Shown in pieces: positions 12,874 to 49,452 of a stretch of 52,399 nucleotides of DNA. Both the position numbers and the translations under genes were made by a program. Location: the NCBI GenBank assembly GCA_028706745.1, contig JAQTVM010000011.1, forward strand, positions 1 through 52,399, written 5' to 3'. This DNA is from Candidatus Nanoarchaeia archaeon. Lineage in GTDB: Archaea; Nanobdellota; Nanobdellia; SCGC-AAA011-G17; GW2011-AR17. Position 1 is the first letter of the stretch. The number at the start of each line of letters is the position of its first letter. The notes beneath the pieces were generated by a model. That model saw nothing but the letters and a program-made list of their open reading frames with translations. It did no database searches and was not told the DNA's origin.

Positions 12874-13752
12874 TTATTTTGACTTTTCAATAAGCTCCAA
12901 GGCAAGGGAAGTGTCGTTAAGGGCAAACAAATGCGCGCCGGCTGCTTTGTATTTTCTCAGTTTTCTGATAAAATCAGAGAAATATGCAATCCCAAACTCC
13001 CTTCCTTTTTCCTCAAGCCCTTTTTTCAGATTTTCACCAATCTTTACCTTGAAAAATGACTCAGCATCAAGCGCCTGCTTCAAAGACACGAGAGGGCGTA
13101 TTCCCGCTATTACCGGAACAACAATCCCCGCCTTCCCAATGCTTTCAACATAAGCCTTATATTCCTCAAAAGAAAATACCATCTGCGTGATTACCGCCTC
13201 TGCGCCGTTTTGAATCTTGAGTTTCATATGCATTATTTCATCTTCAACAGGGTCTTCAGGATGCCCTGCCGCAATAATGCAAAAATCTGTCTTATTTCCC
13301 GCCCTGAATTCCCCCTCATTATTGTTTCTTGGCAGATATTTGCCATTATTCATCTCATTTATCTGCTTCATGAGAAGATAAGCATATTTGTAATCCCCGC
13401 TCCATTGCTCTGAAGAGCCTGCAGGCGGGTCTCCCCTTAATGCGAGTATGTTGCTTATTCCAAAATAATTAATGTCAGCCAGGTCATTCTCAATCTCCTG
13501 CCTTGTCCTTTCCCTGCAGACAAAATGCGCAATGCAAGGAACTCCAAGCTCTTTTTGCGCAAAATAAGCAATAGGCAGGGAGCCTCCTCTCAGGCTTCCG
13601 CCCGCCCCCTTTGTAACGCTTAAAAAATCAATCTTTCCCTTCAAGGCAGAAATCTCTTTCATGAATTTTTCAAAATCAGAGCCGTTTCTTGGCGGAACAA
13701 TCTCAACGGAAAAGCAGAATCCTTTTTCCAGCAGTTCTGTTATCTTTTTCAT
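12874..13752 (-). CDS. metF: Methylenetetrahydrofolate reductase
   Basis: A 292-residue TIM-barrel flavoprotein that reduces 5,10-methylene-THF to 5-methyl-THF. Signature stretches are FSVEIVPPRNGSDFEKF, FLSVTKGAGGS, IAHFVCRERTRQEIEND, NILALRGDPP and GAEAVITQMVFS. Length is normal for the MetF domain. The start codon overlaps the metH stop (ATGA), so translation is coupled to its downstream consumer: the 5-methyl-THF it makes is the methyl donor for MetH. MetF and MetH are uncommon in archaea, so bacterial ancestry is likely. Confidence 0.93.
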   Translation of the reverse strand: MKKITELLEKGFCFSVEIVPPRNGSDFEKFMKEISALKGKIDFLSVTKGAGGSLRGGSLPIAYFAQKELGVPCIAHFVCRERTRQEIENDLADINYFGISNILALRGDPPAGSSEQWSGDYKYAYLLMKQINEMNNGKYLPRNNNEGEFRAGNKTDFCIIAAGHPEDPVEDEIMHMKLKIQNGAEAVITQMVFSFEEYKAYVESIGKAGIVVPVIAGIRPLVSLKQALDAESFFKVKIGENLKKGLEEKGREFGIAYFSDFIRKLRKYKAAGAHLFALNDTSLALELIEKSK

Positions 13753-16085
13753 TTTTCACCAAGCAGGTGCTGCACTTCTGCAACAGCTGATATTGCATCG
13801 CCTGCATAATGCGCGCCTATGCTTTTTGCATATTCGCTTGTTATAACAGCGCCGCCCGCAAGCACAGGCACGCTTATATTCTCTTTTTTCAGCAGCTTAA
13901 TAACCTTATCAATTTCAAGGGCTGTTGTTGTCATCAAGGCAGAAAGGCAGAGCAGTTTCGCTCCTTGCTTTTTAACAGCCTCAATTATTTTCTCGGCAGG
14001 CACATTCGCGCCAATGTCAATCACATCATAACCCCTGCTTTCAAGCATTGAGATTACAATGTTCTTGCCTATGTCGTGGATGTCATTCTCAACAGTCGCA
14101 ATCAGCACATTCCCCCTGCTCTTTTCAGGCTTTCCGGACTTTGCAAACTCAGGCTTAAGCTCTGAAAACGCTGTTTTCATTGCATTTGCGCAGGAAATGA
14201 TTTGGGGCAGGAACATTTTCTTTTCATGAAACCTTTTCCCTACTTCCGTAATTGCATCAACAAGAACAAGGTTTATTTCTGCGGCGGAAATCTCAGAAAG
14301 CGCCTGCCTTGCAAACAGCCCTGCTTTTTCCTTATCGCCGTTAATAATCGAATTGAATATCCTGTCTTTTAGCCCCATTGAATCATAATCAGCTTTAACT
14401 GCCCCAGATAAGTGTTTTAGTTTTGCTGAATCTTTTTTTTCGTTGATAATTGCATCAGCCGGGTTCATTATTGCAATATCAAGCCCCTGCCTTGAAGCTT
14501 TTGAAAAAAACTCATTGTTTAACAAAGCCCTGTCCGGCATTCCGTGAGAAATATTTGATATTCCGAGAACAGTGCCGTATCCTTCTGCTTTTATTTCCCT
14601 AATTGCAGACAGGACAATATCCTCATTTTCGGGATTTGTTGCCTTTGCCATCACAAGGCAGTCAACGAATATGTTTTCTTTCTTAATGCCGTATTTCCCG
14701 GCTTCTTTTGCTATTTTTTCTGCTGTTTCAATTCTTTTTTCTTTTGTTTCAGGAATCCCTTTTTCATCAAGGCACAATGCAATTATTGCCGCTCCGTATT
14801 TTTTGGCAAGAGGAAGGACTGCATTGAGGCTTTTTTCAGAGCCGCTGACAGAATTTATCAGAGGCTTGCCTGCATATTCCTTTAATGCTGACTCCATTGC
14901 TTCTGCGCTTGAAGTGTCTATAATCAGGGGAATATCAACAGCCTGCTGGACTTCTGAAACAATTTTCTTTAACGCTTTTTTTTCATCAGCGCCTGCAACG
15001 CCTGCATTGACATCAAGCAGCAAGGCGCCTTCTCCTGCCTGCATTCTTGCCTGCTCAATGGCATAAAATCCTTTCCCGCCAATAATCTCCTGCCTGAATG
15101 CCTTTCTTCCAGCAGGATTAATGCGCTCGCCTGCAATGATTGTGCTTTTGCCTAAATCAATAGTATTATACCTTGAGCAAAGCGCTGATTTTATTTCCAT
15201 ATTTCTTTTTGCCGGCTTTGCATTCTTTAATTTTTCAGCAATTGCCTTAATATGCAGGGGAGTTGTGCCGCAGCACCCCCCAATCATATTCACTCCAATC
15301 TTGCGCAGCTTGACGGCATATTCTGCAAACTCAGCCGGAGTTTCCGGATAAACAGCTTTTTCTTTCTCAATAAAAGGCATTCCGGCATTCGGCTTTATCA
15401 TTATCGGCTTTGAACAAAATCTTGCAAGCTCTTTTGCCGCCCCATAAAGCCCTTCCAGCCCTTCTGAACAGTTTGCGCCAATTGCGTCAATATCCAGCGA
15501 TTCCGCAATGCAGGCAAAAGTTTTCACATCAGTGCCTGCCGCAGTCCTGCCCTGCTGGAATGACATTGAGACAATAATCGGAAGAGAGCAGGCGTCCCTT
15601 ACCGCAATTACGGCTGCCTTAAGCATTTTCACATCAGACATTGTTTCTATTGCAATAATATCGCATTCTGAAAGCGCCCTTGCCTGCTCAAGATATGTTT
15701 CATACGCATCATCAAATGACACTTTTCCAAGAGGTGAAATATAATCGTCAATAGGGCCCATGTCGCCTGCAACCATGATTTCTTTTCCTGATTCCACTGC
15801 AGATTCCCTTGCAATTCTTGCGCCTGCCTTGTTTGCTTCAGAAACATCATATTTTATTGCTTTTTTTTGAAATGCAATCCTGTTTGCCCCGAATGTGTTT
15901 GTGAATATTACGCCTGCTCCTGCTTTTATGTAATCATCATGCACTGATTTTACAAGCAAGGGGTTTGTTATATTAAGAATTTCTGTATTGCAGCATTGGC
16001 ATTTGCCCATAAGCATTGTGCCCATTGCCCCGTCCGCCACAAGCACTTTTTTTCCAAGCAGTTCTGAAAATTCTTTCCTGTCCAT
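13749..16085 (-). CDS. metH: Cobalamin-dependent methionine synthase lacking the reactivation domain
   Basis: 778 residues in the MetH order: homocysteine/zinc domain (about 1-300, with GANCSEG and GGCCGT supplying the three zinc cysteines), pterin-binding barrel (STIIAGERINPAGR to about 560), cobalamin cap, and B12 domain with DIHDIGKNIV, whose histidine ligates cobalt. The C-terminal SAM-binding activation domain of E. coli MetH is absent; the protein ends just after the B12 domain (EVQHLLGEK). The start at 16085 is chosen over 16118 because GGAGAGG lies 8 nt upstream. A separate reactivation protein would be needed. Confidence 0.93.
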   Translation of the reverse strand: MDRKEFSELLGKKVLVADGAMGTMLMGKCQCCNTEILNITNPLLVKSVHDDYIKAGAGVIFTNTFGANRIAFQKKAIKYDVSEANKAGARIARESAVESGKEIMVAGDMGPIDDYISPLGKVSFDDAYETYLEQARALSECDIIAIETMSDVKMLKAAVIAVRDACSLPIIVSMSFQQGRTAAGTDVKTFACIAESLDIDAIGANCSEGLEGLYGAAKELARFCSKPIMIKPNAGMPFIEKEKAVYPETPAEFAEYAVKLRKIGVNMIGGCCGTTPLHIKAIAEKLKNAKPAKRNMEIKSALCSRYNTIDLGKSTIIAGERINPAGRKAFRQEIIGGKGFYAIEQARMQAGEGALLLDVNAGVAGADEKKALKKIVSEVQQAVDIPLIIDTSSAEAMESALKEYAGKPLINSVSGSEKSLNAVLPLAKKYGAAIIALCLDEKGIPETKEKRIETAEKIAKEAGKYGIKKENIFVDCLVMAKATNPENEDIVLSAIREIKAEGYGTVLGISNISHGMPDRALLNNEFFSKASRQGLDIAIMNPADAIINEKKDSAKLKHLSGAVKADYDSMGLKDRIFNSIINGDKEKAGLFARQALSEISAAEINLVLVDAITEVGKRFHEKKMFLPQIISCANAMKTAFSELKPEFAKSGKPEKSRGNVLIATVENDIHDIGKNIVISMLESRGYDVIDIGANVPAEKIIEAVKKQGAKLLCLSALMTTTALEIDKVIKLLKKENISVPVLAGGAVITSEYAKSIGAHYAGDAISAVAEVQHLLGEK

Positions 16086-16121
16086 AATCTTGCCTCTCCA
16101 ATGAGCATCAATTCTCAAAAA

Positions 16122-17351
16122 TCAGTAAGGAAGCGGAAACCCCTTGAGCATTTCCTTCACATCGGACTTGATTTTTGCAAGCGCTGCCTCATCCCTATGA
16201 TTTTTCAGCGCCTTTTCAATGAATCCTGCAATCTCCTTCATCTCTTTTTTCTTCATTCCCCTTGTTGTTATTGCAGGAGTGCCCATTCTGATTCCGCTGG
16301 GGTCAAACGGGCTTCTCTTGTCAAACGGAATAACATTCTTGTTGCAGATGATTTCAGCCTTTTCAAGCGCAAGCTGGGCTTCCTTTCCAGTCAATCCGCT
16401 TTTTGTAACGTCCATCAGAATCAGATGATTGTCAGTGCCGTTTGTTACCAGCTTGAATCCAGCTGACATTAATTCATCAGCAAGAGCTTTTGCATTCTTT
16501 ACAATCTGCCTTGCATAAACTGCAAAATCCGGCGCCATTGCCTCCTTGAAGCATACAGCTTTTGCAGCGATTATGTGGTTATGGGGCCCGCCCTGCATTC
16601 CGGGAAAAACTGCCTTGTCAATCTTCTGTCCGAACTTCTCTTTGCACATTATTATTGCGCTTCTCGGCCCCCTTAATGTCTTGTGTGTTGTTGTTGTGAC
16701 AACATCAGTATAAGGAAAAGGCGAAGGATGGGCTTTTCCAACAACAAGTCCTGCAATATGCGCTATGTCAGCCATGCTTATTGCGCCGACTTCCTCTGCA
16801 ATTTCTGAAAATGCCTTGAAATCAATTGTCCTTGGATAAGCAGATGCGCCTGACAAAATCAGCTTTGGCTTTTCCTTAAGAGCAATCTTTCGTATTGCGT
16901 CATAGTCAAGCATTTCTGTTTTTTCGTCAACGCCGTAATGAGTGAATGCATAATTTTTTCCTGAGAAATTTACAGAATGCCCATGAGTAAGATGCCCGCC
17001 GTGGTTTAAGTCCATTGCAAGTATCTTGTCCTTGTGCTCAAGCAATGCAAAATAAACCTCGAAATTTGCAGGGCTGCCTGAGTAAGGCTGGACATTCGCG
17101 TGCTCTGCGCCAAAAAGCTTTTTTGCCCTCTCGATTGCAAGCTGTTCAACCTTATCAATGAACTCGTTTCCTGCATAATACCTTTTTCCCGGATAGCCTT
17201 CAGAATACTTGTTCGTGAGCACAGAACCCATTGCCTCAATCACGGCAGGGCTTGTGAAATTCTCAGAAGGGATAAGCTCGAGGCTTTCGTTCTGCCTCTT
17301 TGTTTCAAGCCGGATAAGCTCTGCAATCTCAATGTCATCCTCTTTAAGCAT
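16122..17351 (-). CDS. glyA: Serine hydroxymethyltransferase
   Basis: 409 residues, the normal length. It converts serine plus THF to glycine and 5,10-methylene-THF with PLP. Visible signatures are [37 protein letters not shown] and the PLP lysine in [13 protein letters not shown]. It is the first gene of a glyA-metH-metF unit: its product is the substrate of MetF, whose product feeds MetH. Upstream, a TATA-like element lies about 28 nt from the ATG. Confidence 0.96.
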
Positions 17352-25781: not shown

Positions 25782-26894
25782 ATGGACAGGCTAATCAGCG
25801 AAGCAGCATCAAAAGTCGGGCCGAAAGGCACAGCAAGCAGAAAAAGAAATGCAATGGATGAAGAGCTTGAAAAGCTTCTCTCCCAACAAAAATCAAAGAT
25901 AAAATTAATAGGCATTGGCGGCGGCGGAAACAATTCCATAAGCAGGATGTCAGAAGTCGGCGTTGAAGGCTGCGAGACAGTAGCGATAAACACTGATGCG
26001 CAGGACCTGCTTTACACAAACGCTGACATAAAAATTCTTATCGGAAAAGAAACAACAAAAGGGCTTGGAGCAGGAAGCGTCCCTCAAGTAGGGGAGCAGG
26101 CTGCAAGGGAAACAGAAGCTGAAATCAAGGAAGCGCTGAAAGGCTGCGACATGGTTTTCATAACCTGCGGGCTTGGAGGCGGAACAGGAACAGGAGCCGC
26201 CCCTGTAGTTGCAGAGATGGCAAAAAAGCAGGGCGCATTGACAATAGCGGTTGTCACAATACCGTTTGAAATGGAAGGCGCGAGAAGGTATGAGAATGCA
26301 ATGTGGGGGCTTGAAAGGCTTGACAGCAATGTTGACACACTGATTGTGATACCAAATGACAAGCTTCTGGAATTGGCTCCTGACTTGCCGATGTACACTG
26401 CATTCAAGGTTGCGGATGAAATACTCACTAATTCAGTAAAGGGCATTGCAGAGCTGGTAACAAAAACAGGATTGGTTAATCTTGACTTTGCCGACATAAA
26501 GACAGTCATGCGCGACGGAGGCGTTGCCATGATAGGCATCGGGGAAAGCGACGGCAAGTCAAGGGCGGTTGATGCAGTGGAGAAGGCAATAAACAATCCA
26601 TTGCTTGACGTGGACATAAGCGGGGCAAACGGGGCTCTTGTGAATGTTGCAGGCGGGCCTGACATGACGCTGGACGAGGCAAGAAAAGTGGTTGAAACAG
26701 TGTCATCACGGCTGTCCGACGACGCAAGAGTGATATGGGGAGCGCAGATTTCAGAGGACCTGCAGGGAACGATAAGGGCAATGCTTATCGTGACAGGTGT
26801 CAATTCGCCGCAGATATTCGGAAAGGACAACAAGATTCACGGCTCAACAAGGAAAGAAATCCAGGACGAGCTTGGGATTGAGTTTGTTGACTGA
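25782..26894 (+). CDS. ftsZ: Cell-division GTPase FtsZ
   Basis: 370 residues. GTP-binding signature GLGGGTGTGAAP at about 129-140, NTDAQDL, and the catalytic T7 loop VNLDFADIKTVM. The N-terminus is a basic, disordered extension of about 38 residues before KIKLIGIGGGGNN; the C-terminus ends HGSTRKEIQDELGIEFVD, typical of archaeal FtsZ. A TATA-like GATTTAAATA lies at 25721-25730 and AAAGGGTGAG just upstream of the ATG. It polymerises into the division ring. Confidence 0.96.
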   Translation: MDRLISEAASKVGPKGTASRKRNAMDEELEKLLSQQKSKIKLIGIGGGGNNSISRMSEVGVEGCETVAINTDAQDLLYTNADIKILIGKETTKGLGAGSVPQVGEQAARETEAEIKEALKGCDMVFITCGLGGGTGTGAAPVVAEMAKKQGALTIAVVTIPFEMEGARRYENAMWGLERLDSNVDTLIVIPNDKLLELAPDLPMYTAFKVADEILTNSVKGIAELVTKTGLVNLDFADIKTVMRDGGVAMIGIGESDGKSRAVDAVEKAINNPLLDVDISGANGALVNVAGGPDMTLDEARKVVETVSSRLSDDARVIWGAQISEDLQGTIRAMLIVTGVNSPQIFGKDNKIHGSTRKEIQDELGIEFVD

Positions 26895-26945: not shown

Positions 26946-27491
26946 ATGATACAGCGAAACAAGCTAAATATAATGGGATTATTCTTTGAAGAGCCAGCAA
27001 GAAATTTTTATCTTAGGGAAATTAGCCGCCTTACAGGCATAGCTGTAATGAGCGCAAGAAAATATCTTATTGAACTTGAGAAAGAAGGGTTGCTCCTTAA
27101 AGATAAAAGCACCCTTTACCCCAGCTACAAGGCAAAAGACACGAGCACGCTGTTCCGCGCTTACAAGCAGCATGCAATGATTCTTTTTATACATCAGTCG
27201 GGGCTCATTGACTATCTTGAAAAAGCCACATTGCCAAGATGCATAATCCTTTTTGGAAGCGTCAGAAAAGGCGAATATACAAAAAAGAGCGACATAGACA
27301 TTTTCATACAAGCGCCTAAACAGGAATTAGGGTTGGCTAAATTTGAGAGAATATTAAAGCATAAGATAAGCATTTTATTTGAGCCGGATTTAACAAAGCT
27401 GAACGAAGAATTATTAAATAACCTAATCAACGGAATCGTGCTATACGGAAATTTAAGGATAAGGGGGCAAAAATGGCAGGAAAAGAAATAA
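26946..27491 (+). CDS. Winged-helix plus minimal nucleotidyltransferase protein, second pair
   Basis: 181 residues. A winged helix (LREISRLTGIAVMSARKYLIELEKEG is the recognition region, residues about 19-44) is followed by a MNT domain with LFGSVRKGE and KKSDIDIFIQ (about 101-122). Same architecture as the protein at 10340-10909 but clearly diverged. It overlaps its HEPN partner by 19 nt. Probable antitoxin that both adenylylates the partner and regulates the promoter; inferred from HepT/MntA. Confidence 0.8.
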   Translation: MIQRNKLNIMGLFFEEPARNFYLREISRLTGIAVMSARKYLIELEKEGLLLKDKSTLYPSYKAKDTSTLFRAYKQHAMILFIHQSGLIDYLEKATLPRCIILFGSVRKGEYTKKSDIDIFIQAPKQELGLAKFERILKHKISILFEPDLTKLNEELLNNLINGIVLYGNLRIRGQKWQEKK

Positions 27492-27919
27492 TGTCGTGGG
27501 ACATATGCATAAAAGAGCATATTGATAAGATTGAGCCTGATAAAGATAAGGCGCAATCATTGCTTAAAATGGCTATGCTGAGATATGAATTCTGGAATAA
27601 CATTAAATTTGACAAGAAGTATACATCAATTGCTGTTGACGGGTATTATGAAGTGATAAAAGAACAGCTTACCGCACTGCTCTATACAGCAGGATACAAG
27701 TCCGATAACCATGAGTGCCTCATCTCTTTTCTTAAAAAGAATTATTCGCACTTATCTTATGAGATAGGCATTATCCACCAGCTTAAAGGGATAAGAAACG
27801 ATATTGATTACAGGGGATTCTTTGTAAATGCCGAATATCTTGAAAGGAATAAGCTGGAATTAAAGCATATAATTGAAGTTCTTAAGGAAGAAATAGAAAG
27901 AAAACTTAAAGAGGAATAA
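27473..27919 (+). CDS. HEPN-domain protein, second MNT/HEPN pair
   Basis: 148 residues with helices SIAVDGYYEVIKEQLTALLY and HQLKGIRNDIDYRGFFV. The RNDIDY segment gives the same RNxxxY signature as the first HEPN protein, in place of Rx4-6H. It is coupled to the MNT gene and is followed 3 nt later by a small membrane protein. Probably the toxin-like half of the pair. Confidence 0.75.
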   Translation: MAGKEIMSWDICIKEHIDKIEPDKDKAQSLLKMAMLRYEFWNNIKFDKKYTSIAVDGYYEVIKEQLTALLYTAGYKSDNHECLISFLKKNYSHLSYEIGIIHQLKGIRNDIDYRGFFVNAEYLERNKLELKHIIEVLKEEIERKLKEE

Positions 27920-28907: not shown

Positions 28908-30065
28908 CTATTTGTTGCGCTGATAAGCAGATTTTACTTGATCTAATGTAGCAAGACGCTTCTGCCTAAGTTCATCAATAAATTTATTCGTATCATATAG
29001 CAATATAGAGGAAAGATTTTTAAATGATTTTACAATCCCTAAACGCCTAAGAATTTCCATATTTCTTTTTTTATTAAGTTCTGATTCTAAAAAATGCATT
29101 GATGCATGAAAATCCCGTTTTGGGTTTAAAAATTTAGCCCAAAAATTAAAATAATGCTTAGCTAAAGTCTTACTATCAAAATTGTTCTCTACAGATAGGG
29201 GCTCTAAATATTTTTTGAATTGCCCATATTGGTTGACATGTGATTCAGTCATGCCGGAAGCAGCCAATAATGTTGCAGTCCTAACAGAGTCCATTATTGC
29301 ATATTGATTTTCAAAAGAAAAAGGTTTAGGTCCTATTATATCTGAAAAGTTAGGGGTTTTTGCTGCCGCCCATAACACTCTTTCCAGACCAAATCCTAAG
29401 TCGCTAATCTGTATATCCGGCTTGTCTTTAAAGAATATTAAACCCGCATCCCCTAATTCAAGACCCCCATAATAAAATTTTAAAACCACGCCGTCTGTAT
29501 TTGCCCAAAAACCTGACTTTCTGCTATAATTCTTATTTAGTTTAAGAGAAAAGTCCCCCATATACAGCCCCATACTTGACAGAAAATTCATCCAACAGTC
29601 TATAGCAGAAATATGTTCTTCGAGGCTTGCCCCGCATTGCACAGTACAAATATTGACAAAAGAAGACACATTGCCTTCTCCAACACTTTCCCTAAATTTT
29701 GTCCTAATCACAGGTTGAGATATAAAATATTTTTGAGTATCAATGCCTTTCTTACCATGGAAATAATCACAAAAGAACTGTATTCCTGCAACAACAAATA
29801 GGGTGTCTCCCTTGTAATTATTTATTACTGAATCCCTGTGTCCTTCTATAAAGCCAGCATCAGAAAAGAACCTATTCATCTTATAGACAAATTGATCCAA
29901 TGTAACAACACCTTTCTTTTTGCTATAGTCTAAAAAATCAAGCCCTGAAGAAGAATTAAAAGCCCTCTGCTTTGAATACCCTATGTCGCCAGACCCCAAT
30001 GCTGTCTTATTCCAATCATGCCCTGATAAATATTTATCAATAGTGCCTATAATTTGGGATTTCAT
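28908..30065 (-). CDS. Stand-alone alanyl-tRNA-synthetase catalytic-domain paralogue
   Basis: 385 residues matching the class II core of archaeal AlaRS. FISQPVIRTKFRESVGE corresponds to the ISQPCIR-DNVG motif 2 region, keeping arginine R121. LELGDAGLIFFKDK matches the LEVATLVF stretch, and DLGFGLERVLWAAAKTP (about 222-238) is motif 3 with R229. The editing and C-Ala domains are missing (full enzymes are near 900 residues). RH of the usual GRHLTSFEM is NV here. It likely still makes an aminoacyl-adenylate, but the acceptor is unknown. It overlaps the AdoMet synthetase gene by 4 nt (ATGA). Confidence 0.72.
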   Translation of the reverse strand: MKSQIIGTIDKYLSGHDWNKTALGSGDIGYSKQRAFNSSSGLDFLDYSKKKGVVTLDQFVYKMNRFFSDAGFIEGHRDSVINNYKGDTLFVVAGIQFFCDYFHGKKGIDTQKYFISQPVIRTKFRESVGEGNVSSFVNICTVQCGASLEEHISAIDCWMNFLSSMGLYMGDFSLKLNKNYSRKSGFWANTDGVVLKFYYGGLELGDAGLIFFKDKPDIQISDLGFGLERVLWAAAKTPNFSDIIGPKPFSFENQYAIMDSVRTATLLAASGMTESHVNQYGQFKKYLEPLSVENNFDSKTLAKHYFNFWAKFLNPKRDFHASMHFLESELNKKRNMEILRRLGIVKSFKNLSSILLYDTNKFIDELRQKRLATLDQVKSAYQRNK

Positions 30066-31297
30066 TTTTTAAGATAATTCCTCCCTTTTAGAATAGAATC
30101 TGTAATATCTGTTATATTTTGTATGCCCTCTTCCACTATATTTCTCACTACAGCCTCATCAACAGGCCCATCTATTGAAACAAGAGCTTTCCACGGATTT
30201 TTTAACAGCCTTCCGCTTTGGCTAACAAGATATACTTCAACGTACTTGTTAGTTATTTTGTATATTTTATCCGCAATTTCTTGTGCAAGAAGATTATATA
30301 ATTTTCCTGCATGATAAACTGGATTTTTTGCAGCCAGCCCTTCAATACTATATGGCCTATTAGATGAGATTAACCCATTTAGTCTATTACCTCTGCCAAC
30401 AACACCTTCATCCCCGCTTTCTATTGAGGAGCCTATAGCTGTAATATATAACTCCTTAAGCTCCAAGTCATCTCTTGTGTTTAAATTAATAGAAAGATTT
30501 AATCCATGCAATAATGAATCCAATAGTTTACTTATATCTCCCCTTATTTTAGCCAAATTAGAAGTGTATTCTTCCAGGCTATGCACATAATTCGCAATTT
30601 GAGGTACGCATAAAGTAATATCAACATCATTTCCTAATCTTGCAGCCATAATCTTGATATCACTTCCCAGCCAAGGTTTATCTGCCTTATATTCCCGACA
30701 ATTAAGAAATTGCTCTAATTTCAGGACAGCAGATTCTACTTTGCTTAATGGAGCGTATCCAACCCCTATTGCAGTATCATTTGCTCCTAAATGCTGAAGT
30801 TCTCTCAAATCATTTGCATCTCTTGGCTCAAACCAGAACCTTCTTGTGCCTTTTGCAGATTCATTTTCATAGGTTTTGCCCGGACTGCTTTGCGTACTAA
30901 CCATATTTATAATATCAATATCTTTTTCCGGATTTAATCCGTCAAATTTTTCCTTAAAAAATTTCCTTATTACGGGATAAAGCAAATCATTTATATTTAA
31001 GTCCACATTGCCAAACCGCAATGAAGCTCTGCCATTCAATATGACTCTAATTGGCTTTGTTATATTTCCTTTTCCAAGCATTACATGGGATGCTCCGCCC
31101 AATAAGCTAAGTTTATCAAAATTATGATGGAGTACAACCCCACATTTTTCTTTTGTGTACCTAGAATAATAGATAGATAATTCTTCAGCCAGCTCATCTG
31201 CCAATGTATCTGGATGCCCGCTCCCTTTTCGCTCTACAAACTCAAAATTATCTATTCCTACCTGCCTATTTACTATGGATATAATCTGGATGCCCAT
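30062..31297 (-). CDS. S-adenosylmethionine synthetase, archaeal family, divergent
   Basis: 411 residues. Archaeal MAT signatures are FVERKGSGHPDTLADELAEE, VLHHNFDKLSLLGG, REPRDANDL-like FEPRDANDLRELQHLGAND, and SGDEGVVGRGNRLNGLISSNR followed by GKLYNLLAQEIA. It makes SAM from methionine and ATP. Several positions differ from the usual archaeal sequence, and the gene is AT-rich. The overlap with the AlaRS-like gene suggests a dedicated SAM or SAM-analogue supply for a pathway, rather than the housekeeping copy; whether another metK exists is not visible here. Confidence 0.88.
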   Translation of the reverse strand: MGIQIISIVNRQVGIDNFEFVERKGSGHPDTLADELAEELSIYYSRYTKEKCGVVLHHNFDKLSLLGGASHVMLGKGNITKPIRVILNGRASLRFGNVDLNINDLLYPVIRKFFKEKFDGLNPEKDIDIINMVSTQSSPGKTYENESAKGTRRFWFEPRDANDLRELQHLGANDTAIGVGYAPLSKVESAVLKLEQFLNCREYKADKPWLGSDIKIMAARLGNDVDITLCVPQIANYVHSLEEYTSNLAKIRGDISKLLDSLLHGLNLSINLNTRDDLELKELYITAIGSSIESGDEGVVGRGNRLNGLISSNRPYSIEGLAAKNPVYHAGKLYNLLAQEIADKIYKITNKYVEVYLVSQSGRLLKNPWKALVSIDGPVDEAVVRNIVEEGIQNITDITDSILKGRNYLKK

Positions 31298-31450
31298 AGC
31301 AAAACTAGATATATTCTCCCTTTAAATACTTTTCCATCTTAAAGTAGTAACATACTAATATTGGAATTTATCATAATAAACTTACGTTTAAATATCGAAA
31401 TCTTATTAAGCAGACAAATCATTATAATTCCATAACAAGAGGTGGTTTTA

Positions 31451-31867
31451 ATGCACAGTGACCTTATAATGCCGGAAGAAGAAAAAGCGCTTTTCAATCA
31501 GCTGGTTGAATACTACAAAAAACTGTATCCCGGAATAGGATTCAAAAAAGTTGAAATTCTTTTGAAGCCGGAAGAGATTGCAGGCATTATATATACATAT
31601 CCCGGAGAAGAGACAGAAGCGACATTCAGGGAGGAAGTGCAGATAATTGCTGATTCATTAAAAAACGGGTATGACACTCCTGTAATAATCCTGAGAAAGC
31701 TGAAAGACAGGAAAGACATTCTTCTTGACGGGCATCGCAGATTGAAGGTTGCCTTTGACAAGAAGATTGGGTGGAAAGCTTTAGCCATGGTGCCTGACAG
31801 GGAAGTCCAGTTTGGCATAGAGAAGATGGGGAAGGGGAAGATAGCGGATATATTCAAAAAGACCTAA
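31451..31867 (+). CDS. ParB/sulfiredoxin-like domain protein
   Basis: 138 residues. The C-terminal half has the ParB/Srx-fold signature: DTPVIILRKLKDRKDILLDG and GHRRLKVAFDKKIGWKALA. The N-terminal half is helical. Start at ATG 31451 with GAGGTGG upstream is preferred over GTG 31442. Members of this fold include nucleases, kinases and partition proteins; this one is too short for a full ParB. A copy of its 3' end recurs 2.66 kb downstream, see the repeat entries. Confidence 0.65.
   Translation: MHSDLIMPEEEKALFNQLVEYYKKLYPGIGFKKVEILLKPEEIAGIIYTYPGEETEATFREEVQIIADSLKNGYDTPVIILRKLKDRKDILLDGHRRLKVAFDKKIGWKALAMVPDREVQFGIEKMGKGKIADIFKKT
31755..31830 (+). repeat. Direct repeat, left copy (in the ParB-like gene)
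   Basis: 76 nt starting TTGACAAGAAGATTGGGTGG, identical except at two positions to 34417-34492. It covers codons for DKKIGWKALAMVPDREVQFG. Left boundary of a possible 2.6-kb insertion. Confidence 0.85.
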
Positions 31868-31929: not shown

Positions 31930-32418
31930 TTAAATATCATAAGTAATCTTTCTGATTTTTATTTCTGTTGGGAAATTAATCTTGTGATTCAGACGAAAAT
32001 TTGGCTTTAAGTAAGCCAAGGTAAGATGAGGCTTAAAATTTTTATGCTGGACATTAATTTCGTAGGGGAACTTTTTGAAAGTATCATGCACTTTTTTAAG
32101 TTCCTTATTTTTATCTAACACTTTTAAGCATAATAATTTGTATTGATTCTTATATCCAGATATAAAAAAAACCTTTCCAAGCTCAAGATTGTTCAATTTA
32201 ATTTTCCTGATATTCTCATTCAATTTATTTTTATTTATCTCTTTATCAATAAGCCCATAAAATAAAGTCAGATGCATCTTTGATGAAACATCACCCTTAA
32301 TATAGTCGATAACATCCGAATAGAAAAAATCCTCTTCTTTGCAAATATTTTTAATAGCTTTCTTAATAGGCAAAACATCCTTCTTTTGCAATTCTGCCAT
32401 GATATATCCATATTCCAT
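31930..32418 (-). CDS. 2H phosphoesterase (LigT/2'-5' RNA ligase-like)
   Basis: 162 residues carrying the two HxT motifs of the 2H superfamily: MHLTLFYG at about 68-75 and PHLTLAYL at about 130-137. These proteins hydrolyse 2',3'-cyclic phosphate or 2'-5' bonds in RNA and nucleotides. The fold and length fit LigT/CPDase. It ends a three-gene run after the tandem nucleotidyltransferase protein. A role in RNA-end or cyclic-nucleotide chemistry is likely. Confidence 0.82.
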   Translation of the reverse strand: MEYGYIMAELQKKDVLPIKKAIKNICKEEDFFYSDVIDYIKGDVSSKMHLTLFYGLIDKEINKNKLNENIRKIKLNNLELGKVFFISGYKNQYKLLCLKVLDKNKELKKVHDTFKKFPYEINVQHKNFKPHLTLAYLKPNFRLNHKINFPTEIKIRKITYDI

Positions 32419-32596: not shown

Positions 32597-34306
32597 CTAT
32601 ATTTTAGGGTTATCGGCATCTATAGTAAACCAAATATTATAATTGCTTTTCCTTATATCCTCAAAGATTTCTATCCATTCATCTCCACTATTAGCCGCAG
32701 CCGCATAAACCCGTTCTCCGTCTATTAAACAGCAAGTTCCTATTATTCCCCTCCTGCGTTCAAATACTATTGAGCTTATTCCCTTTAGAGATGCCTTTGA
32801 TTCATCAAAAAGACAGCCATAAGACTCTCTTAATAAATGTTTAATCTGCAATTTATCATTATCAGAAATGTCAGTAATTAACATGGAAGTATATTTGGAA
32901 TTAGTCGTTTTGAGTTTTTTATATTTTAAAGCATAATCTCTTAAAAATTCCTTCCCTCCATCTATAGACTCAAAAAAAGCGTAGGTTTGTTCTGAGTTTA
33001 AGTTATTGCAGATTGTATCTATTTTATAGTCCAATCCGGGCCGCTCTTTGATTAACCTGATAATAGCGGGGATGCTTGAAGCTATAACTTCTCGAGTCTC
33101 CGCAGGAATGGCAATCTCAGGAAGTCTCGATATTTGTTTCAAAGCGCTTATAACTACTAAGGGAGATTCTCTTGCTCTGTCAGAATTACAGAATTTAAGT
33201 TCCCTGCGCTTAATTTCATCTATTATACTGGGATTTTCAAGTTTATGGGATTGTAAATTATAGACACAACAATTAAAATTTACATCCCCTTTGCCAATCA
33301 TTGCATTTATATCTGATTCTTGCATTTCGCTTATGTCTATATCTACATTTCCATAATAAATGCTAATTGCCTTAGCCCTCTCATTAACATAATATTCAAA
33401 ATTTTCCAAATCTAATTTTTCAGTTTTATGGTACCCTTTTCTTTCAAGTATCCCAATCATATTCTCAAGAGATAATTTGGTCTTAAAATCAAAATCTTTT
33501 GCAGGTTTATCTAATATTATATCCCTTATAAAACCACCCACCAGATAAATCACGGGATTACCAAGCAACGCCCTTATGTTATCAATTGGTGCTTTTTTAT
33601 CTATTTGTTTTTCAATGCTTAAAAGTTCCTGAAGATTTTCTCGGTCATCAGAAGGATAAATTAAATATTTATCAATGCCACAAATATGCAAATCCCTCAA
33701 TATATTAAGACGGGAATCATAATCTAAAGCTAAAATTTTCCACATTTCACTGATATATTCTGCATCTTTTAGAAGATACGCTTTATTTATTGAAGAATCC
33801 AAAGTTGATTGTTCAATATCAAACTTTAATTCACCAGCAAACCTAAATACCCTTAATATTCTACTCGGGTCTAAACTTAATTTTTTATCTGGCTCATTAA
33901 TTTTGATTATTCGGTCCTCCAGATCTTGTAAAGACCCCAAATAATCATAAAAATTGCCATAATTGTCCAAACACATGCAGGATAATGTAATATCCGAATT
34001 ATTAATTGTATGCTCAACATTAGTAGAAGCTGTAAAATCATATATCTGCGAACCAATTTTCAATTTTATTGTTGACACCTCATCCCATCTTCCAATAACC
34101 AATTGAGGAAAATCATTTTGAATTTGATTAAGGTCAAAATTTCCTAAAAAATCATAGTCTGAAATAGTAATATTCCTTCCCAGAATAAAATCCCTTATTT
34201 TTCCGCCTCTTAGATATATCGGTGCTGCCTTTGTTTTTGTAATTCGTTTGGCTATTTCAAAATGTAATTCCATTTCTTTGTTTAATCTTTCAAAATCTAT
34301 TTTCAT
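32597..34306 (-). CDS. Protein with two tandem poly(A)-polymerase/CCA-type nucleotidyltransferase heads
   Basis: 569 residues. Head 1 (about 25-160) has IYLRGGKIRDFILGRN and the metal pair ISDYDFLG; LSLDPSRILRVFRFAGEL is the RNA-binding/ERhxRxxx segment of the family. Head 2 (about 250-380) repeats the pattern: VIYLVGGFIRDIILDK and AKDFDFKTKL. The last 90 residues (SIVFERRRGIIGTCCLIDG to IWFTIDADNPK) resemble a GNAT fold of the N-acetylglutamate-synthase type, less certainly. Known CCA-adding enzymes have one head. A TATA-like ATATTTAAATATC lies upstream (about 34328-34340). Confidence 0.75.
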   Translation of the reverse strand: MKIDFERLNKEMELHFEIAKRITKTKAAPIYLRGGKIRDFILGRNITISDYDFLGNFDLNQIQNDFPQLVIGRWDEVSTIKLKIGSQIYDFTASTNVEHTINNSDITLSCMCLDNYGNFYDYLGSLQDLEDRIIKINEPDKKLSLDPSRILRVFRFAGELKFDIEQSTLDSSINKAYLLKDAEYISEMWKILALDYDSRLNILRDLHICGIDKYLIYPSDDRENLQELLSIEKQIDKKAPIDNIRALLGNPVIYLVGGFIRDIILDKPAKDFDFKTKLSLENMIGILERKGYHKTEKLDLENFEYYVNERAKAISIYYGNVDIDISEMQESDINAMIGKGDVNFNCCVYNLQSHKLENPSIIDEIKRRELKFCNSDRARESPLVVISALKQISRLPEIAIPAETREVIASSIPAIIRLIKERPGLDYKIDTICNNLNSEQTYAFFESIDGGKEFLRDYALKYKKLKTTNSKYTSMLITDISDNDKLQIKHLLRESYGCLFDESKASLKGISSIVFERRRGIIGTCCLIDGERVYAAAANSGDEWIEIFEDIRKSNYNIWFTIDADNPKI

Positions 34307-34416: not shown

Positions 34417-34492
34417 TTGACAAGAAGATTGGGTGGAAAGCTTTAGCCATGGTTCCTGACAGGGAAGTCCAGTTTGGCATTGAGAAGATGGG
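34417..34492 (+). repeat. Direct repeat, right copy
   Basis: Matches 31755-31830 at 74 of 76 positions, same orientation. Similarity begins abruptly at TTGACAAG, after the unrelated GCTAGCATCCAC. Confidence 0.85.
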
Positions 34493-34529
34493 AAAAGGCA
34501 GGATTAAGGACGTTTTTGGCAGGAAATGA
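34417..34529 (+). pseudogene. Displaced 3' end of a ParB-like gene
   Basis: Reads in frame DKKIGWKALAMVPDREVQFG, then IEKMGKGRIKDVFGRK and stop TGA at 34527-34529. It parallels the end of the protein at 31451-31867 (IEKMGKGKIADIFKKT) but with a different last 10 residues. There is an in-frame TAG at 34407-34409 and no start codon, so only a fragment remains. It looks like the original tail of the target gene, replaced by a copy brought in by an insertion, or a broken tandem paralogue. Confidence 0.75.
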
Positions 34530-42211: not shown

Positions 42212-44488
42212 CTATGCTTTTACCTTAAAACCAAGATATTCCTCTTCAAGCGCCTCGCAAACAATGTTTTTTGCGCAGGAATTGCAGTAGCCGTATCTTG
42301 AAACAAGCTCCCAAAACATTGAGGCAATTGTATCCTTAACCTCATACGACAAGTCGTCAAACTGCCTTGTGCCGAATGACTTCACAGCAAGGTAAAGCTT
42401 GTCGTTAGGCAATAAAAGTTTCTGCCTTTTCTCATCAAAAAGTCCGTCTTCAAGCCTTGAGAAAAGATTGTCATATACAAATTCCATTCCCACAATCATG
42501 CTGCCGCCTTTTTCATTAACCGCTTTTGCTATTTCGCCCACTTTTTTTCCAATGAAAAGCCGCGCTTCTTCACCGGGGCGCATTCCTGACTTCTTTTCAA
42601 TAAACTCCATGAACTCAATGTCAGGCAGGGTTCTCCCCTGCTTTGTGATGAATATTTCAACATTATCCAAATACCTGTCTATTAATTCTTTTCTTTTTTC
42701 AGGAGTAATCCCTATAAACGCCCTTTTTATCTCAGAAGCGACAATGTGCTGGTATTCCGCCTCAACCATCTCAATCATGTTCTCAAACCGGCCATACCCT
42801 TTGTCCTCTCCCTCAATACTCGCAAGCTCGCGCGGCTTCTGTGAAATGAGGTCTGTCAGGGCGTGCTTAATCCTGTGAAAGCTTAGGCAGGATGACACCC
42901 ATCCCTCTTTCTTTTCCTCTGCCTCTTTCCTGCTTATTATGTCTGCAACAACATTCTGCATTGTCCTCGGGGAAATGCCTTCCATCCCCTCGTCAGTGCG
43001 CTCATTCCTTATTGTTCTCTGCACTTTTGAATCAACAAGCATCAGCTTTTCCTCAGGGCTGAGCCTTTTGTGAATAATTCCGTCGTAAAGTTTTGCCTTT
43101 ACAAGCGGCGACATGCTTGTTATTACAGCCCTGGCAGTGTCATCAAACAGCTTGGCGTAGTTCTTCGGCATAGGTTTTTTAAGCCTTGTCATTACATTCC
43201 ACATTGCCATCATATCAACAACATGAGGCATTATGTGCTTTCCGCTTCCTTCATTTTCCTCTGTATAGCCGCACTCGTCAAACTGCCTGCGGTAAATCTT
43301 TGCCTCCTGAGAAGGCTGCAAAATATATCCCACCTCAACAACCCTTGTCCTGTCCATAAGCCCCTTGTTTGTGGAATCTTTCAGCATCCTTTCATAATCT
43401 TCAAGGTTGGTGGTTCCCAAAATCATTACATCAACAAAACCCTGCACGCCGTTGAAATCAATTATGAATTCCTGCACAGCGCTCAAAAGATACTGCAGGT
43501 AAGCCCCGTTTCTCTTGAATATGTCTGAGTAATGTATAATGCCCCTGTTTGCATCAACCCATTTTCCTGAAAATTTGTGCAGTTCTATTCCTTTCAATAA
43601 ATCACCGACATTGTGGTATGACTCTGTCTCCATTGTAATGACAGGCGAATCTCCGTCTGTATTCTTGACAGGCTGTATTGTGGCGCACCCTAGATTGCAG
43701 GTTTCTGAAAATCCAAGCCTTTCAACCTGAATGTGCTGAAATACCTTGTCCAAATCCCCGCTATACTCTTCAAGAAGCCTGTTGTAAATTGTCTGGCAGT
43801 TAAAGCAAAGTTCGCTCTTGAGTATTTTTGCGGGAATCTTGACTTTCTTTCCGCTTTTATTTATTATTTCCTCAAGTATCTGCTTTCTCTGCATTCTCGG
43901 ATAAAGAAGAAGAGGGCTGTCATTCATCTGGCAGGGTATGTTTGCAAGCGCCTCAGAGCGCTTTAAGTGGGCATAGCAGGTGTCATCTTTATGCTCTTTG
44001 GAATTAAAACCTACTTTTTTTCTTCCCTTTGTTATCGGAAAAACCCAGTTGAAAGTGTATACTCCTCCTTCAGGGGTTTTTGAATATTCCTCTGCCCCTT
44101 TTATCAAAATCCTTACAATGCTTGTCTTTGCAGTCGCAACAGGGCCCTTGAGCAGAAAAATTCTCTCGCTTCCCCCTCCTCTCGCGATTGTCTCCATGTT
44201 TGAGACAAGCTGCATAAGCATCCTGTCCTGCCCGTAAACACCTTCCCCGACTCCAAGCTTGTCCTCAAAAAGCCTGTAATGTTTTATCTTCTCGCCGCAG
44301 TCATTAATCTCGTCAAAGCCGAAAAAATGAACCATGTCAGAAACGAACTGCACGCTGGTTCTCATATACTTTCCAGGGTCTTCCTTCATCATCACAAGAA
44401 ACTCGTCAAGGGAGCCTTTCCATCCGACGCCTGCTGAAAATCCGTCGCGGATGCGGGCGTGCACTTTTTGGGTTATATCCTTTACCAT
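42212..44488 (-). CDS. PrkA-type AAA+ serine protein kinase, copy 1
   Basis: 758 residues. Walker A is GPVATAKTS at about 114-122. The sensor region reads VMILGTTNLEDYERMLKD, and the arginine-finger region TNKGLMDRTRVVEVGYIL. A zinc-like CFNCQTIYNRLL lies in the middle, and the end has YCNSCAKN, as in PrkA. PrkA (YeaG) works with a DUF444 and a SpoVR protein in stress and sporulation settings. It overlaps the SpoVR gene by 7 nt. Compared with copy 2 it is longer in the central region. Confidence 0.85.
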   Translation of the reverse strand: MVKDITQKVHARIRDGFSAGVGWKGSLDEFLVMMKEDPGKYMRTSVQFVSDMVHFFGFDEINDCGEKIKHYRLFEDKLGVGEGVYGQDRMLMQLVSNMETIARGGGSERIFLLKGPVATAKTSIVRILIKGAEEYSKTPEGGVYTFNWVFPITKGRKKVGFNSKEHKDDTCYAHLKRSEALANIPCQMNDSPLLLYPRMQRKQILEEIINKSGKKVKIPAKILKSELCFNCQTIYNRLLEEYSGDLDKVFQHIQVERLGFSETCNLGCATIQPVKNTDGDSPVITMETESYHNVGDLLKGIELHKFSGKWVDANRGIIHYSDIFKRNGAYLQYLLSAVQEFIIDFNGVQGFVDVMILGTTNLEDYERMLKDSTNKGLMDRTRVVEVGYILQPSQEAKIYRRQFDECGYTEENEGSGKHIMPHVVDMMAMWNVMTRLKKPMPKNYAKLFDDTARAVITSMSPLVKAKLYDGIIHKRLSPEEKLMLVDSKVQRTIRNERTDEGMEGISPRTMQNVVADIISRKEAEEKKEGWVSSCLSFHRIKHALTDLISQKPRELASIEGEDKGYGRFENMIEMVEAEYQHIVASEIKRAFIGITPEKRKELIDRYLDNVEIFITKQGRTLPDIEFMEFIEKKSGMRPGEEARLFIGKKVGEIAKAVNEKGGSMIVGMEFVYDNLFSRLEDGLFDEKRQKLLLPNDKLYLAVKSFGTRQFDDLSYEVKDTIASMFWELVSRYGYCNSCAKNIVCEALEEEYLGFKVKA

Positions 44489-46011
44489 TTTGTTATCTGC
44501 ACCTGCCCCTGATCATACGAAGCGATAATCGGCTGCCCATCTGCAATTGTTGCTATGTGCACAGGCCTGCCCCAAACGCTGTAAATCCTTGCAAGAGTCC
44601 TGTTCCTGTAAGCATTGTCAAGCTCCTGCCCGTAATACACGTGCCGCAAAAGAAGCTCCTTGGAATTTTCAAAGTTTCCGTCAAAAACCTCTATCACAGG
44701 CTGTCCGCCGTTGATAAGCTGCCCTATAAACCAGTTTCTGACTTCCTGCGGGTCCCTGCTTGATATCTTGTACCAGCTGTCATCATGGTCAAGCTTTGAA
44801 GTGAAGAATTTCATTTTTTGTATGAACTCGTCTGTCATGAAGTCCTGTATGAACTGAACATCATTATATGCTTCCCTTACCGCAAACATTTTCTTGAATC
44901 CGTTCCCTTCTTTTGTGTCCCAATCCATTTTCTTAAGCGCGTCTTTTTCTTCCTCATACTCTTTTCCGTATCTTCCCTTGTCCCATCTTTCCTTTATGTC
45001 ATGGTAAAGCAAAAATCCTAGTTTGTAGGGATTCATTCCTCCGCCGCCTATCACTCCTGCCATTGTCTTTGCATAGTCAATAAGCCCGTTCGGCTCTGCA
45101 AGCCCCATCTCAGTCATCATGTAATCATGCCAGAATGTTGCCCAGCCCTCATTCATTATTTTTGTCTGCCTTTGCGGAAGAAAATAATAAGACTCTTCCC
45201 TGATTATTGAAAGAATGTCTTTTTTCCACTGGGACATTCCGTCGGTATTGTCAATAAGAAATTTCAGCACATCCCTCTCCGGGTTTTTTGGGAACCTGTC
45301 TTCAAGCCCTGCTTTTTCCTCTTCCGGTTCACTTCTTCTTCCGCTAACAAGCGCTTCAATATCAACAAAATCACGCATGTATTCAGGAAGCCCGAACGGC
45401 AGCTTTTCAGAACTGCTTTTGCCTTTTTCTTGCTTGCAGCCCTTGCAGCCTGACCCGCACTTGCAATTTTTTTCCTTTTTCTTTTCTTCCTGCTTTTGCT
45501 TCTGTATGTAGGGCGTGTCCTCAATCAAATATTCAATAGAAAGGCAGTTGTCAATGAACTGCTCAACTTCCTCAAAACCAATCTCGTCAATGTATTTCTC
45601 AATCAGGCGGCGGTGGTTTTCCATTGTGTAAACCATGCTCCTGTCAGTGTGCCTGAAGCAGGCATTGTTCTTGAAAAAGTCAACATGCGCAAAAACGTGC
45701 GCCATTACCATCCTTTGCTGGGTAATGCTATTGTAATGCAATAAGTAAGCCACAGCCGGGTCATTGTTTATGACAAGCTCGTAAAGCCTTGAAAAACCGT
45801 AGCCTGTTTCCTTCCTTGTCCTCTCGTATTCCATGCCAAAACGCCAGTGGCTGTACCTTGTCGGAAATCCTGTGTTTGCGCAAACCTCATTCATTGTATC
45901 CAAATCAACAACATAAAATCCTGTAGGATAAAAATCAAGCCCGCACCCTTTTGCAGCCTCTTCAATCTCATCTTTCATTTTTGCCATGTTAGGCGGAAGG
46001 TGCCAGTACAT
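44482..46011 (-). CDS. SpoVR family protein
   Basis: 509 residues. SpoVR/YcgB signatures are NEGWATFWHDYMMTEM, RFGMEYERTRKETGYG, GGGMNPYKLGFLLYHDIKERW and EVFDGNFENSKELLLRHVYYGQELD. A cysteine-rich insert (CKCGSGCKGCKQEKGKSS, about 192-209) is unusual and may bind metal. The start follows the DUF444 stop by 1 nt. Function in the PrkA/DUF444 set is not known at the biochemical level. Confidence 0.93.
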   Translation of the reverse strand: MYWHLPPNMAKMKDEIEEAAKGCGLDFYPTGFYVVDLDTMNEVCANTGFPTRYSHWRFGMEYERTRKETGYGFSRLYELVINNDPAVAYLLHYNSITQQRMVMAHVFAHVDFFKNNACFRHTDRSMVYTMENHRRLIEKYIDEIGFEEVEQFIDNCLSIEYLIEDTPYIQKQKQEEKKKEKNCKCGSGCKGCKQEKGKSSSEKLPFGLPEYMRDFVDIEALVSGRRSEPEEEKAGLEDRFPKNPERDVLKFLIDNTDGMSQWKKDILSIIREESYYFLPQRQTKIMNEGWATFWHDYMMTEMGLAEPNGLIDYAKTMAGVIGGGGMNPYKLGFLLYHDIKERWDKGRYGKEYEEEKDALKKMDWDTKEGNGFKKMFAVREAYNDVQFIQDFMTDEFIQKMKFFTSKLDHDDSWYKISSRDPQEVRNWFIGQLINGGQPVIEVFDGNFENSKELLLRHVYYGQELDNAYRNRTLARIYSVWGRPVHIATIADGQPIIASYDQGQVQITKW

Positions 46012-46012
46012 T

Positions 46013-47161
46013 TTATTTCCCTGTCCCGAGGAATGTCTTTATTGCAGGCAGGATGTCCTCTTCATCCTGCAGCCTTGATGTGAGAAGCTTGTCCTTGTAT
46101 TTTGATTCGTTGATAAATTTCTCAAGCTCTCCAAGATATGAGCCCATCACTTCCTCTGATTTCGTGCCATACCTTGAAGAATAAAACCACGGAATGTCAA
46201 TCTGGGCATAGCATAGCAGGTTAAGGGCATCCATCAACCCGCCCTTGAGCACAGTGAATTCATCCTCATTGTTTCCCCAGTTGTCTCCGTCTGAAAACTG
46301 GAAAAGGTATATGTTCCAGTCAGAAGGGTCATAGCTTCTCTTGATTATTTTTTGCGCTTCTATGTAGCCTGAAACAATCTTTGTCCCGCCTGAAGTTGTT
46401 GTCTTGTAGAATGTTTCCTCGTCAACCTCGGCAGCAACTGAGTCGTGTATTATGTACCTTGTCTCAAGCCCCTTGTAATGGGAGCGCAGCCATACATCTG
46501 ACCAGAATGCGATTTTTCTTGCAATGCTCTTGTGCCTGTCTGACATGCTGCCTGAAACATCCATCAAATACATAACAACCGCGCTGCTTTCCGGAATGTC
46601 CTTTGTTTTCCATGAGCGGTATCGCATGTCATCTTTCTCAATTGATATTGACGGGTCTTCAGGGTTGTATTCTCCAGAAGCTATCTGCCTTTTCAATGCC
46701 TCGCAGAAAGTTCTTTTTAATCTCAGCAAAGAACGCGGACCTTTTCTTCTAAGCCCGGAATAATGGTCAAACTGCTGGTAGATTGTCCTTTTACCCCTCG
46801 GCTCAATCCTCGGCAGCTTGAGCTCCTCCCCAAGAATCAACGCAAGCTCTTCAACAGTGAGTTCAAGCATGTGCTCCCCTGCTTCTTCTCCTGCCTTTTG
46901 CCCTTCTCCTTCTTCACCCTGGTCAGCCGGGCGCACCTTGTCTCCAATATCTCCCTCTCCCTGTCCAACCCCCCCGTCATCCTCATTGTTTCCGTACTTG
47001 AACCTCGGCAGGTTTATGTGCGGAACAGGAATTACAACCTTGTCCTTGCCTCTTCTGCCAATAAGATCGTCTTTTGCAATAAGGTCTTTCAAATCTTTTC
47101 TTATATTGCCGCGGACAATCTTGTTAAATCGTTCTGCGTCCTTTGGTATATTTGAAACCAT
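46013..47161 (-). CDS. DUF444 (YeaH/YhbH) family protein with VWA-like domain
   Basis: 382 residues. The metal-ion-dependent adhesion site DVSGSMSDRHKSIARKI is in the von Willebrand A-like half, and the N-terminal VRGNIRKDLKDLIAK and acidic EDDGGVGQGEGDIGD stretch are typical of YeaH. CAGGAGAA is positioned for the ATG at 47161. It sits between the two kinase-type genes and SpoVR and is the conserved partner of both. Confidence 0.93.
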   Translation of the reverse strand: MVSNIPKDAERFNKIVRGNIRKDLKDLIAKDDLIGRRGKDKVVIPVPHINLPRFKYGNNEDDGGVGQGEGDIGDKVRPADQGEEGEGQKAGEEAGEHMLELTVEELALILGEELKLPRIEPRGKRTIYQQFDHYSGLRRKGPRSLLRLKRTFCEALKRQIASGEYNPEDPSISIEKDDMRYRSWKTKDIPESSAVVMYLMDVSGSMSDRHKSIARKIAFWSDVWLRSHYKGLETRYIIHDSVAAEVDEETFYKTTTSGGTKIVSGYIEAQKIIKRSYDPSDWNIYLFQFSDGDNWGNNEDEFTVLKGGLMDALNLLCYAQIDIPWFYSSRYGTKSEEVMGSYLGELEKFINESKYKDKLLTSRLQDEEDILPAIKTFLGTGK

Positions 47162-47188
47162 GTTCTCCTGTTTTACTAAAAGAAAGGA

Positions 47189-49273: not shown

Positions 49274-49281
49274 ATAATGTC

Positions 49282-49325
49282 CCTCCTTTTTTAAAAAAGA
49301 GAGCAGTTGCTGTCGCCCTCTTTTT
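49282..49325 (-). promoter_or_regulatory. Leader hairpins near the Shine-Dalgarno of the PrkA operon
   Basis: Plus-strand CCTCCTTTTTT (49282-49292) is followed by AAAAAAGAG (49293-49301), and CTCTTTTT recurs at 49318-49325. In the mRNA the middle segment can pair either with the upstream AAAAAGAG or with the ribosome site AAAAAAGGAGG. A switch is possible but unproven. Confidence 0.3.
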
Positions 49326-49452
49326 CTGTGTTTATTGATGTTAGCGGCATATATAAACCTTTTTAACAAAAAAATAAAAATGATAACAAAGAAGTAGTAA
49401 ATAGTTATATGATAAAATATGACAAAGGAAAATCAAGCATGATTACCCCAAA

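Follow-up and report, generated by a model that had tools for sequence, protein, structure and literature searches.

The question raised by this locus is why a gene for an archaeal-type methionine adenosyltransferase (MAT) should overlap, in an archaeon, a gene for a short protein resembling the catalytic part of alanyl-tRNA synthetase (AlaRS). The window, i.e., the whole stretch of DNA that was analyzed, is a 52,399-nucleotide contig (JAQTVM010000011.1) of a Candidatus Nanoarchaeia archaeon, and a sequence-only reading of it had joined the two genes in one pathway. Its description of the layout was confirmed: both genes lie on the minus strand and overlap by 4 nt, and a peptidase S51 gene lies next door (cf. 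Table 1), convergent with the AlaRS-like gene and ending 2 nt from its stop. The GC content of the block at 27.9-34.3 kb was 33.5%, as compared with 40.4% for the window, so that its AT-richness is real, and modest. Of the AT-rich accessory biosynthetic or defence island that had been suggested, the AT-rich variable locus and the biosynthesis-like gene set held up, whereas no evidence was found for a defence role.

Table 1 Genes of the locus and its borders in the window
Feature	Position	Strand	Basis or remark
Archaeal-type methionine adenosyltransferase (MAT), 411 aa	30062..31297	-	PF01941 match; accessory clade
AlaRS-derived protein, 385 aa	28908..30065	-	Family profile vs AlaRS; catalytic domain and shortened tRNA-recognition region
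S51 peptidase-like protein (PepE/cyanophycinase family), 218 aa	28250..28906	+	PF03575, 6e-31
ParB/Srx-looking protein, motif ILLDGHRR, flanking gene	31442..31867	+	No Pfam match
FtsZ-like gene, one border of the interval variable in the genus	25782..26894	+	Translation read directly

The FtsZ-like neighbor is the same in genomes G001, G002, and G003, while the interval between it and the ParB-like gene varies within the genus. The window and its congener G002 hold the MAT/AlaRS-like/S51 set there, and G003 has instead a HAD protein, two glycosyltransferases, a methyltransferase, and a NUDIX protein; the contig of G001 stops inside the S51 gene, and the interval is seen only to that point. The ParB-like gene was dropped as a pathway member, since G003 and G006, both devoid of the AlaRS-like gene, have it too, and it probably lies outside the set. 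Its last ~88 bp (31755-31842) are repeated with 93% identity at 34417-34504, 2.66 kb downstream, and the two copies bracket a 2'-5' ligase/LigT-like gene (31930-32418) and the adjoining gene for a 569-aa protein (32597-34306, minus strand) in which PolyA_pol head domains were matched twice. Pairs of this gene end also occur in the congener G001, where they bracket other cargo (a HEPN/MNT-looking pair; AAA_14-DUF4143), as if the 3' end of the gene were a recurrent site of DNA insertion. Elsewhere in the window, nucleotidyltransferase/HEPN-looking, toxin-antitoxin-like pairs were seen at 26946-27919 (+), with an MntA-type match, and at 9811-10909 (-), and an operon of bacterial stress/sporulation type (PrkA, SpoVR, DUF444, and a second PrkA) spans 42212-49369 (-) of this archaeal genome.

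Are the two overlapping genes simply the housekeeping enzymes? The MAT matched Pfam AdoMet_Synthase (PF01941) at 4e-101, carries the catalytic motifs GHPD, HHNxDK, ANDT, GRGNR, and KNP, and keeps 58 of the 69 columns that are invariant in housekeeping-type archaeal MATs. It is the only PF01941 gene of its genome, in which one bacterial-type MetK is encoded elsewhere; a second metK, about which the sequence-only reading had asked, is therefore present. Apart from the AlaRS-like protein, the genome encodes a single AlaRS, a 593-aa protein of the bacterial type, and a separate AlaX-like editing protein (234 aa). Both housekeeping enzymes, AlaRS and MetK, are of the bacterial type; the accessory genes are therefore not redundant and are not the enzymes serving translation and methylation, and the archaeal type of both speaks for a distinct role and against their having arisen by simple duplication. 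Genes for MTHFR, a MetH-like protein with homocysteine methyltransferase, pterin, and B12 domains, and SHMT stand in a row (12874-17351, minus strand) at a distance of about 13 kb from the MAT gene and make up a methionine-regeneration operon.

When some 470 distinct genomes from the phylum were searched, short AlaRS-like proteins were found in five of them, namely the window genome, G002, G036, G249 (a Ca. Woesearchaeota MAG, JAFGGS010000002.1), and G328; the first two are one lineage, which makes four lineages. The other matches that were inspected were either true AlaRSs, complete or nearly so, or AlaRS frames that seemed to be split or cut by a contig end. The order in G002 (MAT / AlaRS-like / convergent S51) is like that in the window. 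G328 has a tight, mostly overlapping run of inositol-phosphate synthase (possibly N-terminally incomplete), radical SAM-SPASM protein, MAT, AlaRS-like protein, S51, and histidine phosphatase, and in G249 the MAT and AlaRS-like genes are followed by those for a histidine phosphatase and a radical SAM protein, and then by S51 on the opposite strand. The overlapping genes of G036 encode a glycosyltransferase-like protein (a very weak match), a radical SAM protein, the AlaRS-like protein, a dNK-like kinase, S51, and a P-loop protein; no MAT is among them, and a PF01941 search of the whole G036 genome gave no match. The MAT gene thus directly adjoins the AlaRS-like gene in three lineages (window/G002, G249, and G328), so that the pair recurs in DPANN genomes and its adjacency is not peculiar to one contig, while S51 is found at every AlaRS-like locus (four of four lineages) and radical-SAM genes lie near in three of the four. 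The accessory gene set is real and recurrent in the phylum. We found no description of it in the open-access literature, and no relatives of the AlaRS-like protein were found in plasmids, phages, or viral contigs; a search of genome contigs with the G249 member alone as the query matched only G249 itself. As to the proposed common pathway, the accessory set stood, while the MAT proved not to be obligatory, as G036 indicates.

In a phylogenetic tree, the window MAT grouped with MATs from bacterial plasmids, and this accessory group was split from the phylum's other archaeal MATs and two plasmid MATs with 100/97 support, the placement inside it being unsure owing to a few long branches. Four genomes of the phylum sample, belonging to three lineages, have a MAT of the accessory clade, and each of them carries the AlaRS-like gene; with independent placement, the chance of all three MAT-clade lineages falling among the four AlaRS-like ones of about 370 is ~5e-7 (4/C(370,3)), a figure that counts the window genome and G002 once and ignores shared descent between lineages. 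In another sample, genome G090 holds a truncated MAT of this clade without an AlaRS-like gene (L073, 7137-7850, minus strand), which is likely a remnant of the set. The best plasmid matches of the MAT were from a Rickettsiales plasmid (Ca. Megaera pPCS148; 52% identity) and Streptomyces plasmids (43% identity), and the plasmid carriers of the clade comprise Ca. Megaera pPCS148, Streptomyces NBC_01334, NBC_00015, and NBC_00708, and Parageobacillus. The plasmid genes, though of the same clade as the window MAT, lie among those for TIM-barrel sugar isomerases, Gfo/Idh/MocA oxidoreductases, kinases, phosphatases, and NUDIX proteins, without an AlaRS-like gene, and the Parageobacillus one adjoins inositol-phosphate synthase. 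These neighbors suggest that in bacteria this MAT type goes with sugar or cyclitol chemistry. A 378-aa gene upstream of the Megaera MAT was considered as a candidate and rejected, as its product is not AlaRS-like.

The variability of the FtsZ-ParB interval might mean that MAT, AlaRS-like protein, and S51 are unrelated cargo of a genomic hotspot that share no pathway, and S51 and the MAT clade are each indeed found without the AlaRS-like gene. However, the same genes lie together, tightly or with overlaps, in G328 and G249, which differ in family and genomic context, and we regard this explanation as improbable.

What, then, is the AlaRS-like protein? The 385-aa sequence alone gave only AlaRS models as matches, at 1.3e-4 for Pfam tRNA-synt_2c (weak, under the curated cut-off) and 2e-5 for TIGR00344. 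A family profile of four members matched archaeal AlaRS structures in the PDB at 6e-16 and E. coli AlaRS at 1e-5, and hhalign of the family against archaeal AlaRS profiles gave 99.7% (E 3e-27), with positions 14-392 of 397 placed onto AlaRS 49-488. The alignment thus runs over the full length of the family; the editing and C-Ala domains are, as had been noticed earlier, absent, the family proteins ending at 379-397 aa. The archaeal N-terminal CxxC...C...C segment is kept in three of the four lineages and has been lost by the genus of the window. The five proteins formed one clade with 100/100 support, and because its branches are long, common descent is better attested by the gene context that the members share. 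Identity between members is 22-26%, as against 72-79% between the window and G002 proteins, for which dN/dS was ~0.11-0.19 (NG86), compared with 0.09 for MAT, 0.16 for S51, and 0.10 for FtsZ in the same pair. The G002 reading frame is split because of scaffold gaps (runs of N). The AlaRS-like gene is under purifying selection and has conserved homologues; a decayed pseudogene is ruled out by the dN/dS values.

Compared with archaeal AlaRS (PDB 2zze, 2ztg, and 3wqy), the family shares the ancestral fold, the segment order, and motifs 2 and 3, yet it lacks, apart from the terminal domains, an insertion of ~59 residues and the motif-2 His. Arg121 (motif 2), Phe136, Trp187, Asp222, and Arg229 (motif 3) are invariant in all four lineages, in accordance with the earlier assignment of the two arginines to a class II catalytic core. 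In contrast, the (R/K/S)-His pair that precedes the motif-2 Phe in AlaRS has been replaced in every lineage (NV, VS, IS, and SC), the NV seen before being N132-V133 of the window protein, and the Asn of the alanine site is gone as well (D, D, I, and V). In class II enzymes the basic and His residues of motif 2 grip the phosphates of ATP, and an intact AlaRS motif-2 ATP site is thus absent here, although Phe136 is present. The stretch after motif 3 aligns, minus the ~59-residue insertion, with the AlaRS tRNA-recognition region, which gave a weak match when taken alone (39%, P 3e-4). The residues that read G3:U70 (N359 and D450 in Archaeoglobus fulgidus) do not appear to be conserved: the N359 column holds H in the window and N, T, or K elsewhere, and LYD358 of the window stands opposite D450 in one alignment, but not in the profile alignment. 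We infer from the sequence that the pocket for aminoacyl-adenosine has been retained and, at least in part, a shortened region for tRNA recognition; a structure predicted from a two-row alignment had a mean pLDDT of 36.

The sequence-only reading had assumed that the protein activates an amino acid as the adenylate, and the loss of the motif-2 basic/His pair in four of four lineages, together with the partly kept tRNA-recognition region, speaks against this and favors a transferase that uses aminoacyl-tRNA over a ligase that forms an adenylate. We put forward tentatively, and at a little under an even chance, that the AlaRS-like protein is such a transferase in a small accessory biosynthetic pathway. 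The same pattern, i.e., loss of ATP-site residues and retention of the aminoacyl-adenosine pocket and the tRNA region, characterizes AcmF and is the opposite of that of tRNA-independent ligases, and on this ground we prefer the transferase to a ligase, a regulator, or hotspot cargo. AcmF, a 370-aa protein (PMC4257720) with aminoacylation and tRNA-recognition domains only (PMC12945691), takes part in ascamycin biosynthesis in Streptomyces sp. 80H647/JCM9888, where its cluster includes the hydrolase AcmE and the radical-SAM protein AcmH (PMC12945691, PMC4257720), and its Ala-tRNA-dependent alanylation of dealanylascamycin has been shown in vitro (PMC12945691). Like AcmF, the present family is a truncated AlaRS of these two domains (its C-terminal part alone being weakly matched), has lost ATP-binding residues, and appears to lack the Asp and Asn that read G3:U70; S51 and, at the sister loci, radical-SAM genes recall AcmE and AcmH. 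Unlike AcmF, in which the changes are N219Q and D232E, it has D, D, I, or V for the Asn and keeps Asp222 throughout; it matches archaeal AlaRS far better than bacterial AlaRS, and it is found together with MAT and S51 in DPANN archaea, with no sulfamate genes seen. Since the Asp-to-Glu change is absent and the ancestry looks different, of the archaeal type, we do not claim membership of the AcmF family.

Several findings count against the transferase: its tRNA-recognition region is weakly matched, the residues that read G3:U70 seem not to be conserved, the MAT is absent from one of the four lineages, and the retained Asp222 would be compatible with adenylate formation. A rival reading is an ATP-dependent ligase that would join an amino acid, via the aminoacyl-adenylate and without tRNA, to an amino-sugar or cyclitol. 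A precedent is MshC, the mycothiol ligase derived from CysRS, a class I, ATP-dependent enzyme which keeps its activation site and whose pathway includes inositol-phosphate synthase. Such a synthase gene lies beside one sister locus (G328), and phosphatases, kinases, sugar isomerases, and oxidoreductases surround sister and related MAT loci; the protein itself keeps the arginines of motifs 2 and 3, the motif-2 Phe, and the Trp and Asp of the alanine site. Moreover, as proposed for the present protein, the CysRS paralogue aminoacylates a small molecule, acting on glucosamine in mycothiol synthesis (PMC2922099). The AlaRS-like protein is, unlike MshC, of class II and devoid of the motif-2 pair expected to hold the ATP phosphates, and in tRNA-independent ligases it is usually the ATP site that survives and the tRNA region that is lost, the reverse of what was found; a ligase therefore seems to us somewhat unlikely.

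The loss of ATP-site residues and the high divergence of the members would also agree with a non-catalytic regulator or subunit, which might sense uncharged tRNA or bind the MAT, much as HisZ serves HisG, and the 4-nt overlap with the MAT gene hints at coupled expression. However, G036 has the AlaRS-like protein without an archaeal-type MAT, and the pocket residues have stayed invariant although the four lineages are very divergent, as if a ligand or reaction had been retained, which makes such a role improbable.

In the S51 protein, Ser122, Asp139, and His162 are invariant in five of five sequences and may, by analogy with PepE, form the catalytic triad of this peptidase family. It is the only S51 protein encoded in the window genome. 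It counts against its place in the transferase pathway that ~30% of related genomes carry an S51 gene, in most cases with no AlaRS-like gene. In G021 (L096), S51 belongs to a different accessory cluster (histidine phosphatase, nucleotidyltransferase, P-loop kinase), followed by a gene for a 369-aa protein (6738-7847, minus strand) that looks by eye like a reduced class I synthetase and gave no profile or PDB sequence match as such.

Under the transferase reading, the probable function of the set is to aminoacylate a small molecule. The AlaRS-derived protein would no longer activate the amino acid with ATP; the aminoacyl group, most likely alanine, would come from Ala-tRNA charged by the cell's own bacterial-type AlaRS and would be moved, in an AcmF-like manner, to a small-molecule acceptor bound in the old adenylate pocket. 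The MAT may supply the same pathway with SAM, which the radical-SAM enzymes of the sister loci would also use, or with an adenosylated compound, and the S51 protein might trim the aminoacyl group or take it off again, for release or self-protection. As the acceptor, a SAM-derived nucleoside would fit the pocket, and a sugar or cyclitol would fit the neighboring genes. That a MAT-derived (adenosyl) compound is the acceptor, in a DPANN aminoacyl-tRNA-dependent natural-product pathway that arose from archaeal AlaRS independently of AcmF, is an unlikely conjecture. For a tRNA mark, also named as a possible product by the sequence-only reading, no evidence was found.

If the transferase reading is true, a tRNA synthetase core from the archaeal AlaRS line would have been recruited to decorate small molecules in archaea with very small genomes, separately from AcmF, the sole AlaRS-derived transferase that we found described in the open-access literature. 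The compact set of three genes, two of them overlapping, would then be a route to a new aminoacylated metabolite, and the MAT clade common to archaea and bacterial plasmids would offer a handle for mining related pathways.
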